NCBI RefSeq assembly: GCF_000007705.1
Contig: NC_005085.1
Location: 3,605,752-3,669,751, forward strand
From: Chromobacterium violaceum ATCC 12472
Lineage (GTDB): Bacteria; Pseudomonadota; Gammaproteobacteria; Burkholderiales; Chromobacteriaceae
DNA length: 64,000 bases
Direction of reading: 5' to 3'
Shown here one piece after another: positions 3,096 through 16,370 of the stretch. Both the position numbers and the translations under genes were made by a program. Under the pieces are notes generated by a model that was not told where the DNA came from, searched no databases, and was given only the letters and a program-made list of their open reading frames with translations. Numbering within the stretch: position 1 is the first letter of the stretch; every line of letters begins with the position of its first letter.

Positions 3096-3116
3096 ATCTG
3101 GTATGTATCTGGTATG
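3096..3116. repeat. Two tandem ATCTGGTATG repeats, 11-bp period
   Basis: The decamer ATCTGGTATG occurs at 3096-3105 and exactly again at 3107-3116, immediately after the terC stop codon. An 11-bp period places both copies on the same face of the helix, as expected for a pair of protein-binding sites. It lies 22 bp upstream of the CviR-type box and about 370 bp upstream of the chitinase. No binding protein can be named from sequence. Confidence 0.5.
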
Positions 3117-3162: not shown

Positions 3163-3476
3163 GAAGCCGAAATCAGCGTAAGCGCGCCTGACATCCCTTC
3201 CTCCCCATCGCCTCTCATCGCTTTCAAGCTGGCAAAGTCTGGCGCTGCAAGCCTTCCCCCACACCAAACAAGGACAATGTCATTTTGCGCTTTTTCTCTA
3301 AATGACTGCATTGATTAACAAACAAGCCGCTATCTAAAAGTTATTAATTACAAGACCAGCCTGCCAAAAAGTACAGGGTCATTTTTCCTCCTAGTCGCTA
3401 CATTCCAATTTGCAATACCACTTCAATACAACTCACAACGCTTGTTTCCGCACCCAATGACAAAGGGAGATACCGA
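3163..3476. other. Chitinase upstream region, AT-rich
   Basis: About 310 bp with no gene. It becomes strongly AT-rich from about 3280 to 3430, unlike the flanking coding DNA, and contains several plausible -10/-35 combinations, none clearly best. It presumably carries the chitinase promoter and untranslated leader. A GGGAGA Shine-Dalgarno lies at 3465-3470, before the GTG start. Confidence 0.5.
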
Positions 3477-5852
3477 GTGAGCAAGACCCTGATGCTTGTG
3501 AAAAGCGGCCTCGCAGCCGGCGCCATGGGCGGCGTCGCGTTGGTGGCCGGCACCGCGCAGAACGTCGCGCCGCCCCCCGCGGCGCTGGCGCCCTCCTACC
3601 TGGTCAAAACCGCCGACAGCAGCTGCGCCGACCCGGCCTGGAACGCCGCCGCCGTCTACACCGGCGGCCAGCGCGTCAGCTACCAGAACCAGACCTGGCA
3701 AGCCAAGTGGTGGACGCAGGGCAATACCCCGGCGGCAGGCGACGCCAGCCCCTGGCAGCTGATCGGCCAATGCGGCGGCGGCACGCCGTCCGATCCGCCG
3801 CTGGTGCAGGTGCCGCCGCCGACCGGCAACGCGCTGTGCCGGCCCGAGGCGCTGGCGCAGACCCAGGGGGTGGACGTTCCTTACTGCGCGGTCTACAAGC
3901 AGGGCGGCGCGGAGCAGCTGGCCAACGGCAGCCGCCGCCGCATCATCGGCTACTTCACCAGCTGGCGCACCGGCAAGGACGGCAGCCCGGCCTACCTGGC
4001 CAGCGACATCCCCTGGAGCAAGCTCACCCACATCAACTACGCCTTCGCCCACGTGGATGGAAGCAACAAGCTGTCGGTCAACGAGACCGCGCCGGGCAAC
4101 CCGGCCACCGACATGAGCTGGCCGGGCGTGGCCGGCGCAGAGATGGACGCCAGCCTGCCGTACAAGGGCCACTTCAACCTGCTGACCCAGTACAAGCGCA
4201 AGTATCCCGGCGTGAAGACGCTGATCTCGGTCGGCGGCTGGGCCGAAACCGGCGGCTACTTCGACGCCAACGGCAAACGCGTGGCCAGCGGCGGCTTCTA
4301 CAGCATGACCGTCAACGCCGACGGCACCGTCAATCAGGCCGGCATCAACGCCTTCTCCGACTCCGCCGTCGCCTTCCTGCGCAAATACGGCTTCGACGGC
4401 GTCGACATCGACTTCGAATACCCGACCTCGATGAACAACGCCGGCAACCCGCTGGACTGGACCTTCTCCAACGCCCGCCTGGGATCCTTGAACAAAGGCT
4501 ACGTGGCGCTGCTGCAGACGTTGCGCGACCGGCTGGACCGCGCCGCCGCCCAGGACGGCCGCTACTACCAGATCACCGCCGCGGTGCCGGCCTCCGGCTA
4601 TCTGCTGCGCGGCATGGAAACCTTCCAGGGCCTGAAGTATCTGGACTTCGTCAACGTGATGTCCTACGACCTGCACGGCGCGTGGAACCGCTTCGTCGGC
4701 CCCAACGCCGCGCTGTACGACGACGGCAAGGACGCGGAACTGGCGTTCTGGAACGTGTACAGCACGCCGCAGTACGGCAATATCGGCTACCTGAACACCG
4801 ACTGGGCCTACCACTACTACCGCGGCGGCCTGCCCGCCTCGCGCGTCAACATGGGCGTGCCCTACTACACCCGCGGCTGGAAAAACGTCAGCGGCGGCAG
4901 CAATGGCCTGTGGGGCAGCTCGGTGGGCAGCAACTGCCCGGCCGGCCTGACCGAATGCGGCGACGGCGCGGTGGGCATAGACAACATCTGGCACGATCTG
5001 GACGACAGCGGCAAGGAGATCCCGGGCGGCTCCAACCCGATGTGGCACGCCAAGAACCTGGAGAAAGGCCTGGCCGGCAGCTACCTCGCCGCCTACGGCA
5101 TCGACCCGACGCTGCCGATCAACCAGCTCACCGGCAGCTACCAGCGCAACTACAACGGCGCGCTGGCCGCGCCGTGGCTGTGGAACGCCGGCAAGAAGGT
5201 GTTCCTGTCCACCGAGGACGAGCAGTCGATCGCGCAGAAGGCCGCCTGGATAGACGCCAACAACGTCGGCGGCGTGATGTTCTGGGAGCTGGCCGGCGAC
5301 TATGACTGGAAAGCCCAGCGCAACAACGGCCAGGGCGAGTACTTCATCGGCACCACGCTGACCTCGCTGCTGTACAACACCTTCAGCCAGCCGCCCAAGG
5401 TCAGCGCCCGCCGCGCCGACGCCGCGCCGGCGCCGACCGCGGCGATAGACGTGGGCTTCAGCCTGGGCGGCTTCAAGCTGGGCGACCAGAACTATCCGAT
5501 CAACCCCAAGCTGACCATCGTCAACCGCTCGCAGACCACGCTGCCCGGCGGCACCGAGTTCCAGTTCGACGTGCCGACCTCGGCGCCGGCCAATATCGCC
5601 GACCAGTCCGGCTTCGGGCTCAAGGTGGTCAGCGCCGGCCACAGCGGCAGCAACGTCGGCGGCCTGAAGGGCGACTTCAACCGCGTGTCGGTGAAGCTGC
5701 CCAGCTGGCAGAGCCTGGGCGCCGGACAAAGCGTGACGCTGGACGTGGTGTATTACCTGCCGATCTCGGGCCCCAGCCACTACACGGTGGGCCTGAACGG
5801 CAAAACCTACGCTATCCGCGACGAAGCGCCCTACCTGCCTTATCTGCGCTGA
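3477..5852 (+). CDS. Secreted multidomain GH18 chitinase
   Basis: A 791-residue protein starting at GTG behind GGGAGA. It has a hydrophobic N-terminal signal-like segment (about 8-28). A CBM5/12-type chitin-binding module follows at about 50-99, with the family's Trp and Tyr residues (PAWNAAAVYTGGQRVSY). The GH18 barrel spans about 152-625. SVGGW is at 251-255 and the catalytic DGVDIDFE at 307-314, so E314 is the predicted acid and D312 its partner. The C-terminal 130 residues (about 655-785) resemble the ChiC-type beta domain seen after other bacterial chitinases. It hydrolyses beta-1,4-GlcNAc chitin outside the cell and would cooperate with the AA10 oxygenase at 14629. The CviR-type box upstream suggests quorum control. 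Confidence 0.95.
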   Translation: MSKTLMLVKSGLAAGAMGGVALVAGTAQNVAPPPAALAPSYLVKTADSSCADPAWNAAAVYTGGQRVSYQNQTWQAKWWTQGNTPAAGDASPWQLIGQCGGGTPSDPPLVQVPPPTGNALCRPEALAQTQGVDVPYCAVYKQGGAEQLANGSRRRIIGYFTSWRTGKDGSPAYLASDIPWSKLTHINYAFAHVDGSNKLSVNETAPGNPATDMSWPGVAGAEMDASLPYKGHFNLLTQYKRKYPGVKTLISVGGWAETGGYFDANGKRVASGGFYSMTVNADGTVNQAGINAFSDSAVAFLRKYGFDGVDIDFEYPTSMNNAGNPLDWTFSNARLGSLNKGYVALLQTLRDRLDRAAAQDGRYYQITAAVPASGYLLRGMETFQGLKYLDFVNVMSYDLHGAWNRFVGPNAALYDDGKDAELAFWNVYSTPQYGNIGYLNTDWAYHYYRGGLPASRVNMGVPYYTRGWKNVSGGSNGLWGSSVGSNCPAGLTECGDGAVGIDNIWHDLDDSGKEIPGGSNPMWHAKNLEKGLAGSYLAAYGIDPTLPINQLTGSYQRNYNGALAAPWLWNAGKKVFLSTEDEQSIAQKAAWIDANNVGGVMFWELAGDYDWKAQRNNGQGEYFIGTTLTSLLYNTFSQPPKVSARRADAAPAPTAAIDVGFSLGGFKLGDQNYPINPKLTIVNRSQTTLPGGTEFQFDVPTSAPANIADQSGFGLKVVSAGHSGSNVGGLKGDFNRVSVKLPSWQSLGAGQSVTLDVVYYLPISGPSHYTVGLNGKTYAIRDEAPYLPYLR

Positions 5853-13428: not shown

Positions 13429-14379
13429 ATGGCGCGCCCTCCGATGAAGCCGCTCCCCCATTCCCGCGCCCAGGTTTCCATGGCGCGCGCGATATTGTCC
13501 GCCGCGCGGCGCTGGCTAGCGCCCATATGCTTTCTCGCATGCATGGCGGCGGCCTGGGCTGGCGAGCCCATCCTCATCCGCTATCCGGCTTTCTCACCCG
13601 AGTCCGAAGCCCGTTTCCAACCTTATCTCGACTTGTTGCGCGAGGCCTTGGAACGCACCAGCCCCAAATATGGTCCGGCAGAACTCCAGCCCTCGCCCCA
13701 ATCGATGACCGAGACCCGCTACCTGCAGGAACTGCTGCTGGGCAATCTGGACGTGGCCTGGAGCTCCACCAGCGAAGAGCGGGAGCGGCTGATGCGGCCC
13801 GTCCGCATCCCCCTGGACAAGGGGCTGCTCGGTTATCGGGTCGCGCTGATACCGGCGGCGCGCCAGTCCGTCATAGCCGGCGTGCGCGATCTGGCCGGAC
13901 TGCGGCGACTGCGCGTGGGCCAGGGACTGGGGTGGGGCGACGTCCGGCTTTACCGCCACAACGGCATCCAGGTGACCGAGGCCGGCTACGAGCTGTTGTT
14001 CGCCATGCTGGACAAGGGGCGCTTCGATCTGTTTCCCCGCGGCATCGGCGAGGTGTTTTCCGAACTGGACAACCGGTCCGCCGCCTATCCCGGCCTGGCA
14101 GTGGACAAGTCGCTGCTGATCTACTACCCCTGGCCCTATTATTTCTTCTTCAACCGCGAGCGCGGGGCGGAATTGGCGAAGCGGGTGGAGGAAGGCTTGC
14201 GCCTGATGCTGAAAGACGGCTCCTACGATCGGTTTTTCCAGCAGCATTACGGCGCGTCGATACGCCGCGCCGATCTGGACGGCCGCACGCTGATCCGGCT
14301 AGACAATCCGATGCTGCCGAAAAAGACGCCGCTGGACGACGCCAGGTTATGGTACCAGCCCGCCTCCCGGGCCAGGTGA
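13429..14379 (+). CDS. Periplasmic solute-binding protein, amino-acid type
   Basis: Up to 316 residues. Three in-frame ATGs are possible (13429, 13444, 13480). The last gives the most normal signal peptide (MARAILSAARRW, hydrophobic core, cleavage after AWA) and a 299-residue protein, but none has a good Shine-Dalgarno. The mature part (EPILIRYPAFSPESEARFQPYLDL in two blocks) resembles family-3 extracellular binding proteins. It has no ABC permease or ATPase next to it and lies 58 bp after two chemoreceptors. It could serve as their ligand-binding partner; that is inference from position only. Confidence 0.7.
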   Translation: MARPPMKPLPHSRAQVSMARAILSAARRWLAPICFLACMAAAWAGEPILIRYPAFSPESEARFQPYLDLLREALERTSPKYGPAELQPSPQSMTETRYLQELLLGNLDVAWSSTSEERERLMRPVRIPLDKGLLGYRVALIPAARQSVIAGVRDLAGLRRLRVGQGLGWGDVRLYRHNGIQVTEAGYELLFAMLDKGRFDLFPRGIGEVFSELDNRSAAYPGLAVDKSLLIYYPWPYYFFFNRERGAELAKRVEEGLRLMLKDGSYDRFFQQHYGASIRRADLDGRTLIRLDNPMLPKKTPLDDARLWYQPASRAR

Positions 14380-14547
14380 TCGTCTCTTACCGGGCCGGCC
14401 CCGAATATTGCAAGACAATCGAACTGTACGTTCAAATAAAATTCAAAAATAACCAATGCAAGAAAAATTGATCAAACGCCAACAAACAGCAATTTAGTTG
14501 TCCAAATGAGCGATTTATGCAAGTTAGGACCATATCCGCAGCATAGC

Positions 14548-14626
14548 TTGGACTCCGTCGAGGCAAGTGGTGCCAAAGTGGTATCAACTTACAGCGACAT
14601 TCGGCAAACCGACAGACGGAGTCCAA
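14548..14626 (+). promoter_or_regulatory. Structured leader of the chitin oxygenase gene; arm contains the Shine-Dalgarno
   Basis: TTGGACTCCGTC (14548-14559) is the exact reverse complement of GACGGAGTCCAA (14615-14626). The right arm contains the GGAG Shine-Dalgarno of the gene at 14629. The 55-base interval can fold into three small hairpins: GGCA/TGCC (14562-14574), AAGT/ACTT (14576-14590) and TCGG/CCGA (14601-14612). The whole would be a multi-branched RNA closed by a 12-bp helix that hides the ribosome site. It does not show the conserved core of c-di-GMP-I riboswitches. Function is inferred. Confidence 0.5.
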
Positions 14627-14628
14627 AC

Positions 14629-15777
14629 ATGAAACCGCATTTTTCCATTGTCATGATGCTGGCAGGATTAAGCACCTCGTCATGGGCGCACGGCACCATG
14701 GAAGTGCCGATCAACCGCACCTACAGTTGCTCCAAGGAAGGCGCCGAATCCCCCAAGACGCCCGCCTGCCAGGAAGCCAAACGCGTCGGCGGCACACAGG
14801 CGATGTACGACTGGAACGGCATCAACCAGAATCCTCCGGGAGACAACCACCAGTCCGTTGTTCCAGATGGCACGCTGTGCGGCGGCGGCCAGGCGAAATT
14901 TAAGGGCTTCAACCTGGCGCGAACCGACTGGCCGACCACCAATATCGTCCCGGACGCCAAGGGCAATTTCGAATTCATCTATACCGCGACCATGCCGCAC
15001 GCCACCAAGTACTTCAAGTTCTACGTCACCCGGAACGGCTGGAATCCGAATCAGCCGCTCAAATGGTCGGATCTTGAACCGTTCGGCACTTACAACGGCA
15101 ATCCGCCGCTCGACGACAAGCAGCGCTACCACATGACCATGAAGCTGCCGACCGGCAAGACCGGCCGCCACATCATCTACAACGTGTGGAAGCGTTCGGA
15201 CAGCGAAGAGGCTTTCTATTCGTGCTCCGACGTCAACTTCACCAACGACGGCAAGCCGGAGCCGCCGCCGATCTCCAATCCGTGGAAGGAAGCAGGCAGC
15301 GTGACCGCCCACGAGAACCTGCCGGACAAGAGCTCGGTGACGCTGCGCATCTTCGACAGCCATGGCCGCGACGTGGAAAGCCACAAGGTGGACCTGAGCG
15401 CCTCCAGCGGCCAGGCAGCCAATTGGCCCTACGAACTGGGCGTCAAGGTCAATGCCGCCTCCCAGATCGGCCGCATCGGCGTGATCAGCAGTAAACAACG
15501 CGCCGTCACGATCAACCCGGTCCGCAGCGCCACCGCCAACCGCGTGTGGCTGAATGAGCGCTATAGCGGCTACCGGTACCAGATCGACATCAAGAAGGGC
15601 GACGGCGGGGTGAATCCGCCGGTGCCGGGCGACGAGTGGCGCGAGGGCGTGGCCTACACCGTGGGTCAGATCGTCAGCTACCAGGGCCGCCGCTATCGCT
15701 GCCTGCAGGGCCACACCGCCTGGACCGGCGCCGGCTGGACGCCTTCCACCCAGCCCGCGCTGTGGACCCCGGCCTAA
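14629..15777 (+). CDS. AA10 lytic polysaccharide monooxygenase (GbpA-like chitin-binding protein)
   Basis: A 382-residue secreted protein, started at the ATG behind GGAG (7-base spacing); a longer frame from 14506 lacks support. The signal peptide ends SSWA, so the mature protein begins with His21 (HGTMEVP), the N-terminal copper ligand required in AA10 enzymes. His124 in TMPHATKYF is the probable second ligand of the histidine brace. The catalytic domain (21-about 210) is followed by a GbpA-like middle region and a C-terminal CBM5/12 module (about 337-381, with YTVGQIVSYQGRRYRC). It cleaves crystalline chitin oxidatively and should act with the chitinase at 3477. The upstream DNA is unusually AT-rich, and the leader can pair with the Shine-Dalgarno. 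Confidence 0.93.
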   Translation: MKPHFSIVMMLAGLSTSSWAHGTMEVPINRTYSCSKEGAESPKTPACQEAKRVGGTQAMYDWNGINQNPPGDNHQSVVPDGTLCGGGQAKFKGFNLARTDWPTTNIVPDAKGNFEFIYTATMPHATKYFKFYVTRNGWNPNQPLKWSDLEPFGTYNGNPPLDDKQRYHMTMKLPTGKTGRHIIYNVWKRSDSEEAFYSCSDVNFTNDGKPEPPPISNPWKEAGSVTAHENLPDKSSVTLRIFDSHGRDVESHKVDLSASSGQAANWPYELGVKVNAASQIGRIGVISSKQRAVTINPVRSATANRVWLNERYSGYRYQIDIKKGDGGVNPPVPGDEWREGVAYTVGQIVSYQGRRYRCLQGHTAWTGAGWTPSTQPALWTPA

Positions 15778-15803
15778 ACCGCTAACCCCATAGAAACGCG
15801 TCT

Positions 15804-15823
15804 GGAGGCGGCTCGCCGCCTCC
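15804..15823. other. GGAGGCGG/CCGCCTCC hairpin after the chitin oxygenase gene
   Basis: A perfect 8-bp inverted repeat with a CTCG loop, 26 bp after the stop and 25 bp before the cytochrome gene. It has no T tract, so it may slow or process the transcript rather than terminate it. Confidence 0.4.
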
Positions 15824-15848
15824 CGCCGCCCCTCGCTTCGAGAAATCC

Positions 15849-16370
15849 ATGAAACGCTATCCTTTCCTGGCGATGCTGCTGCATTGGCTGAGCGCTGCCG
15901 CGATACTGTGGGCGCTGTGCAGCGGATTCGCGCTGGCCTCCGGCATCCTGCCGCCGATCTGGGCCAAGGCCATCCCGCCGCTCAACATCGCGCTGACCAC
16001 GCTGCTGCTTCCTTTCTGGCTGCTGCGCCTCTTCTACCGCCTCACTTTCCGCATGCCCCCGCCCGCAGACATGGCCCCGCGCGACTGGGCGATGGCCAGG
16101 CGCGGACATCTGGCGCTCTACGCGCTGGGATCGCTGTCGCTGCTCAGCGGCATCTTGATGATGGAGCGCCCGATGAGCGTATTCGGTTGGTTCACGCTGG
16201 CCGCGCCGCTGCCGCCCGGCCTGCTGACCAGCGGCTTCGCATTGGCGCATTTCGTCAGCAACGTGCTGCTTGCCCTGGCCGTCGCCGCCCACATCTCAGC
16301 GGTCGCCGTCCACCACCGCCGGGGCCTTCCCATCCTTAGGCGCATGAGCTCCGGCCGTTCCGAGCGATGA
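15849..16370 (+). CDS. Cytochrome b561 family membrane protein
   Basis: A 173-residue protein with four hydrophobic helices. It carries membrane histidines placed as in prokaryotic cytochrome b561/YodB-type di-haem proteins: LLHW in helix 1, RRGHLALY in the middle and ALAHFVSN with AAHISAVAVHH near the end. Such proteins move electrons between the quinone pool and periplasmic partners. A link to reduction of the chitin oxygenase just upstream is attractive but only positional. The stop codon lies inside a long perfect hairpin. Confidence 0.85.
   Translation: MKRYPFLAMLLHWLSAAAILWALCSGFALASGILPPIWAKAIPPLNIALTTLLLPFWLLRLFYRLTFRMPPPADMAPRDWAMARRGHLALYALGSLSLLSGILMMERPMSVFGWFTLAAPLPPGLLTSGFALAHFVSNVLLALAVAAHISAVAVHHRRGLPILRRMSSGRSER

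Follow-up and report, generated by a model that had tools for sequence, protein, structure and literature searches.

A putative NagQ-type operator in the leader of a chitin-oxidising AA10 gene of Chromobacterium violaceum, with a possible stem over its ribosome-binding site

Introduction

The c-di-GMP-I riboswitch Vc1 lies before gbpA of Vibrio cholerae. Binding of c-di-GMP in vitro and a positive action are described for it in PMC4744006, and PMC4545359 describes the inhibition of gbpA transcription by c-di-GMP as independent of Vc1. An earlier note on the DNA analysed here took this system as a precedent for riboswitch control of chitin-binding genes; the precedent holds for ligand binding by Vc1, but not for the inhibition of gbpA transcription. 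A different kind of control is known for GlcNAc and chitin genes, which have operators for NagQ, a regulator of the GntR/HutC type. NagQ motifs are given as direct repeats of TGGTATT in PMC4494728 and as tandem repeats in PMC5343134, which places NagQ in betaproteobacteria among others and includes chitin genes in its regulons. The quorum-sensing CviR box is covered in PMC12114271.

Here we analyse the leader of an AA10 gene of Chromobacterium violaceum ATCC 12472 within a window of 64,000 nucleotides (positions 3,605,752-3,669,751 of the 4,751,080-base single-contig genome). Like Vc1, the leader precedes a GbpA-type gene; unlike Vc1, it lies in a window without a match to RF01051. A predicted stem covers the Shine-Dalgarno (SD) sequence, as in RNA thermometers and other SD-sequestering stems, but this perfect 12-bp stem, unlike a thermometer, stays closed on warming in prediction. 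With NagQ operators the leader shares candidate TGGT-type direct repeats and a place before a chitin gene, and near nag-like genes the genome encodes a regulator of the appropriate family. The two putative half-sites in the leader, TGGTGCC and TGGTATC, lie 11 bp apart; they differ from TGGTATT, with which they agree at 4/7 and 6/7 positions. We estimate at about 0.6 the probability that the leader is the control region of the chitin-oxidising AA10 gene with a putative NagQ-type GntR-UTRA tandem operator at its core. As an operator it would belong to a kind that is already known, and as a putative RNA element it is known from two genomes. No title on the AA10 leader was among the matches listed in literature searches on Chromobacterium chitin regulation, transcription starts, riboswitches and LPMO.

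Table 1. Features of the AA10 locus and of the chitinase upstream region in window coordinates; G008 is the one other genome with a homologous leader.
Feature	Position	Strand	Basis or remark
Tandem repeat ATACCACTTCAATACAAC before the GH18-ChiC chitinase gene at 3477	3415..3432	+	Identical 17-mer in G008
Left arm of the inverted repeat, TTGGACTCCGTC	14548..14559	+	10/12 positions kept in the G008 leader
Tandem NagQ-like half-sites (putative), 11-bp period, GATACCAC then GGCACCAC	14567..14588	-	Also the larger inner RNA hairpin
Small 4-bp inner hairpin, TCGG-CAAA-CCGA	14601..14612	+	Predicted fold; 2/4 pairs broken in G008
Right arm, GACGGAGTCCAA, with SD GGAG (14618-14621)	14615..14626	+	11/12 positions kept in G008
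AA10 (LPMO_10) gene with GbpA_2 and CBM5/12 domains	14629..15777	+	Pfam
Cytochrome b561 gene	15849..16370	+	Pfam PF01292; starts 71 bp 3' of the AA10 gene

Results and discussion

The AA10 gene and its neighbourhood

The AA10 protein scores 150.2 bits against the NCBIfam GbpA equivalog, below the cut-off of 481. Homologues occur in 17 of the 19 genus genomes and in 21 of the 61 family genomes (own genome included), and of 15 named loci with relatives of the protein, 11 are from Chromobacterium. The cytochrome b561 gene is possibly co-transcribed with the AA10 gene, and its product is a possible electron-supply partner of the enzyme. A simple sequence-based test with a limit of 500 bp finds the pair (14629-16370) at 7/26 homologous loci, one of them a second AA10 copy of the C. 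violaceum genome. The protein of 316 aa encoded at 13429-14379, between the AA10 gene and a gene for a NIT-domain chemoreceptor, has no Pfam or NCBIfam match. We rejected a coding reading of the leader from an in-frame ATG at 14506, since the frame is not kept across the indels of the G008 leader and the start that looks like that of a signal peptide is 14629.

The outer inverted repeat and the predicted fold

The two arms that flank the core of the leader form a perfect 12-bp inverted repeat, TTGGACTCCGTC being the exact reverse complement of GACGGAGTCCAA, and are separated by 55 bases (14560-14614). The right arm contains GGAG, as the earlier note had stated. A spacer of 7 nt lies between GGAG and the ATG at 14629, and the gap between arm and ATG is 2 bases. 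For comparison we used 285 leaders, taken from crude gene calls in the window and in 20 segments of 20 kb each (400 kb). A perfect repeat of at least 12 bp touching the zone from -20 to -3 is found in two of these 285, the AA10 leader included; the other is a 14-bp repeat at -54 to -16. A longest repeat of 9 bp occurs in 4 leaders, one of 8 bp in 15 and one of 7 bp in 27. Extrapolated from this tail, 12-bp repeats would perhaps arise by chance about 0.1 times per 285 leaders, maybe once or twice per genome. The AA10 repeat is unusual for a single window, but by the same extrapolation one or two of its kind are expected among several thousand genes.

The minimum-energy fold of the leader has -36.6 kcal/mol, and none of 200 dinucleotide shuffles folds as well. 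The corresponding z of -4.39 varies with the number of shuffles (-4.05 with 40, -5.18 with 60), and values of -4 or lower are reached by 6/285 leaders of the genome, that of AA10 included. The stability of the fold exceeds chance. Of the architecture proposed in the earlier note, the closed multi-helix junction is borne out, in the form of a closed three-way junction, whereas the three inner hairpins are reduced to two, a long, interrupted one at 14563-14595 and the 4-bp hairpin of Table 1.

Folding also agrees with the proposal that the leader is able to bury the ribosome-binding site. The SD region is predicted to be 4% unpaired, a degree of concealment reached in 4/285 leaders including this one, against a background median exposure of 0.47. 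The prediction depends on where the transcript is assumed to start: exposure is 0.04 for starts at or before 14548, 0.20 for a start at 14552 and 0.46-0.48 from 14556 on, the last being about the background median. If transcription starts at or before approximately 14548, the stem would mask the ribosome-binding site and reduce translation. A scan for sigma-70 promoters and terminators recognised none. A temperature-controlled switch, one of the options raised earlier, does not fit the predictions. On warming from 15 to 50 °C the predicted SD exposure drops from 0.096 to 0.021 in the window leader, and in G008 it rises only slightly, from 0.294 to 0.315. Since predicted warming does not free the SD, an RNA thermometer is unlikely.

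The idea that the leader is a c-di-GMP-I riboswitch, or another riboswitch of a known or new class, draws on the functional analogy with Vibrio gbpA, as described in PMC4744006, and on the junction-like predicted fold. Nevertheless, we give it very little credence. Both inner hairpins differ or break in G008, and the larger one coincides with the NagQ-like tandem repeat, which we count against a switch. At gathering thresholds, Rfam finds one tRNA only in the whole window. At E up to 10, no Rfam family matches 14380-14700 save two lncRNA models, whose scores of 17.3 and 13.4 bits fall below their gathering scores of 50. RF01051 is absent from both searches. A search of 19 genus genomes with RF01051 was silent, but 14 controls were silent too, so that it is uninformative on other loci.

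Conservation of the leader

A homologous leader is present in one other genome, G008, with 76% identity, which brings the total to 2/61 family genomes including the C. violaceum genome. A search back through the 61 genomes with the G008 leader returned both leaders and one 21-base match elsewhere. The earlier note had looked to compensatory changes in homologous leaders to support its RNA reading and held their absence to count against it; in the single sequence pair, none of the 12 pairs of the outer stem (P1) has a two-sided change. Nine are the same, one has changed on one side, one is broken and one is deleted. Among the inner pairs of the window fold, 9 are the same in G008, 2 have changed on one side, 4 are broken and 2 are deleted. 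These counts use alignment A1 of the two sequences. MAFFT misplaced the right arm in 2/3 alignments. With no two-sided change in P1, a leader in 2/61 genomes and no Rfam match, neither a ligand switch nor a new class is supported, and there is little evidence for a new RNA switch.

The G008 leader is also predicted to fold stably (-34.6, z -4.10), and its arms pair again in a shifted register around a bulged A. The longest uninterrupted repeat near its SD is 7 bp, and its SD exposure of 0.20-0.30 is not far under the background median. We compared this leader with four simulation nulls of 1000 runs each, in which changed columns were kept and letters randomised, operator changes were held, observed letters were permuted, or changes fell in random places. 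As many arm pairs as in G008 were kept in 17, 8, 29 and 22 of 1000 runs, respectively; its whole-fold energy was matched in 20, 93, 107 and 11, and its SD exposure in 71, 80, 391 and 293. We regard the simulations as mild support for the outer stem from one species pair, which is not covariation.

Outside this pair, the leaders examined show nothing similar. The 24 other homologous leaders contain no perfect repeat longer than 6 bp near the SD and have folds that are not unusual (z -2.38 to 1.83); in the AA10 copy of the C. violaceum genome at 590399-591358, the one match without a locus that the analysis covered, the longest repeat near the SD is 5 bp. GGAG is present in 19/24 of the other homologous leaders, and 12/24 have GGAGTC in their last 20 nt but no left arm to pair with it; the right-arm sequence is thus common in leaders that lack the left one. 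All 26 homologous leaders entered the scoring, including three with doubtful starts (L034, L052, L054) and four with stops inside the matched span (L029, L036, L037, L038), and the leader, repeat and fold counts omit eight distant homologues with 31-44% identity (L043-L046, L049-L051, L055). The block upstream of the left arm, 14480-14547, is kept in G008 at 52/68 positions, which is not clearly less than the left arm itself.

A NagQ-like tandem repeat in the leader

The repeat between the outer arms matches the genus pattern ATACCACNNNNATACCA with 2 mismatches (14568-14584). Allowing 2 mismatches, this pattern has 37 matches in the genome compared with 23 for a control pattern, and the score of the AA10 site alone is therefore no evidence. 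With a matrix built on 3 distinct sequences, the site ranks 17 in 464 kb. The case for it rests instead on its place, on its period and on its retention in G008, where both half-sites and the 11-bp period are present in different letters. A palindrome, TGGTRTTRAYACCA, was tried as the first operator pattern; it had 50 matches compared with 30 for the reversed control, and the tandem form was adopted instead.

The half-sites TGGTGCC and TGGTATC are complementary to each other as RNA. An operator of such make-up therefore yields the larger inner hairpin without selection for RNA structure, and in this way an operator of complementary direct repeats can mimic a component of an RNA switch.

Possible roles of the leader

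We hypothesize that a NagQ-like GntR-UTRA repressor binds the DNA at 14567-14588 and that the bound repressor would keep the AA10 gene, and perhaps also the b561 gene, from being transcribed. By analogy with the family, an amino sugar derived from chitin would release the repressor and allow transcription. Our confidences in this operator and in the alternatives for the outer stem are not mutually exclusive, as the operator and the fate of the stem are partly separate. Against the operator reading it can be held that the outer stem is kept in G008 better than in most simulations, whereas an operator does not need the stem. The reading of that stem to which we give somewhat less than even odds is a chance match between a common SD context and an upstream promoter block, with no RNA role. 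The frequency of GGAGTC without its left arm, the lack of a clear difference in retention between that arm and the upstream block, and the one or two such repeats expected per genome by extrapolation are all consistent with such a match, which is less easily reconciled with a stem that re-forms in G008 above all four nulls.

That same re-forming, along with the low z of both leaders and the SD predicted to be hidden in the window leader, would be expected of a functional cis-acting RNA, whose stem would cover the ribosome-binding site until opened, for instance by a small RNA, an RNA-binding protein or coupled translation. It would amount to a local translational attenuator in two related species. 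We consider this unlikely, given the lack of two-sided changes, the short uninterrupted repeat and rather exposed SD of G008, the simulations that reach its energy and exposure, and the absence of anything alike in the other 24 leaders. Less probable still is a double lock, in which the repeats would act both as an operator in the DNA and as part of the SD-hiding junction in the RNA, so that leaky transcripts made under repression stay untranslated; if true, a secreted oxidase that is costly to make would be locked twice, in a few related species. It is more likely that the outer stem is a local, lineage-restricted feature with a small or constant effect than that it belongs to a ligand- or temperature-operated switch. 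Overall, we read the leader as a probable NagQ-type control region in which a local stem may cover the ribosome-binding site.

Related sites elsewhere in the genome

If the AA10 gene has a NagQ-type operator, it probably belongs to a NagQ-type regulon, as does the window's chitinase gene. The pattern has 11 matches with at most 1 mismatch in the C. violaceum genome; in G008 it has 13, compared with 1 for the control pattern. Six of the 11 lie at five places, before a GntR/AA10 pair, a GH20 gene, two GH18 genes and the GH18-ChiC chitinase gene of the window. The tandem site of one GH18 gene abuts the called start, and the GH20 gene is of the chitobiase type. These copies are closer to the pattern than the site in the leader of the window's AA10 gene. 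A seventh match lies approximately 360 bp before the window's chitinase. The sites at 3415-3432 and 3098-3115 are ATACCA-type tandems in opposite orientation, 316 bp apart, and the same pair at the same distance is present in G008. To us this pair looks like a paired, perhaps looping, candidate operator.

At the GntR/AA10 pair, two overlapping exact matches (three half-sites with an 11-bp period) are located between the AA10 gene and a divergent GntR-UTRA gene. The genes after the latter encode amidohydrolase, SIS and PTS EIIA-HPr-EI proteins, as in a nag cluster. The genome has six places with a UTRA domain, and the GntR-UTRA protein matches no NCBIfam family above its cut-off; the name NagQ is therefore assigned by context. 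An exact ATACCA-n5-ATACCA tandem with the 11-bp period occurs within 400 bp upstream of 17/24 other AA10 homologues. These 17 may go back to a single ancestral site that also serves a divergent regulator; the arrangement was examined in the C. violaceum genome alone. There, the GntR-UTRA gene with its nag-like genes lies at L128:9500-20000 and is divergent from two further AA10 genes of the genome. Finally, the tandem repeat ATACCAAACGCATACCA at G000:C1:3685066-3685082 of the C. violaceum genome, found letter for letter in G008, precedes an open frame without a Pfam match, which is a candidate for an extra member of the regulon.
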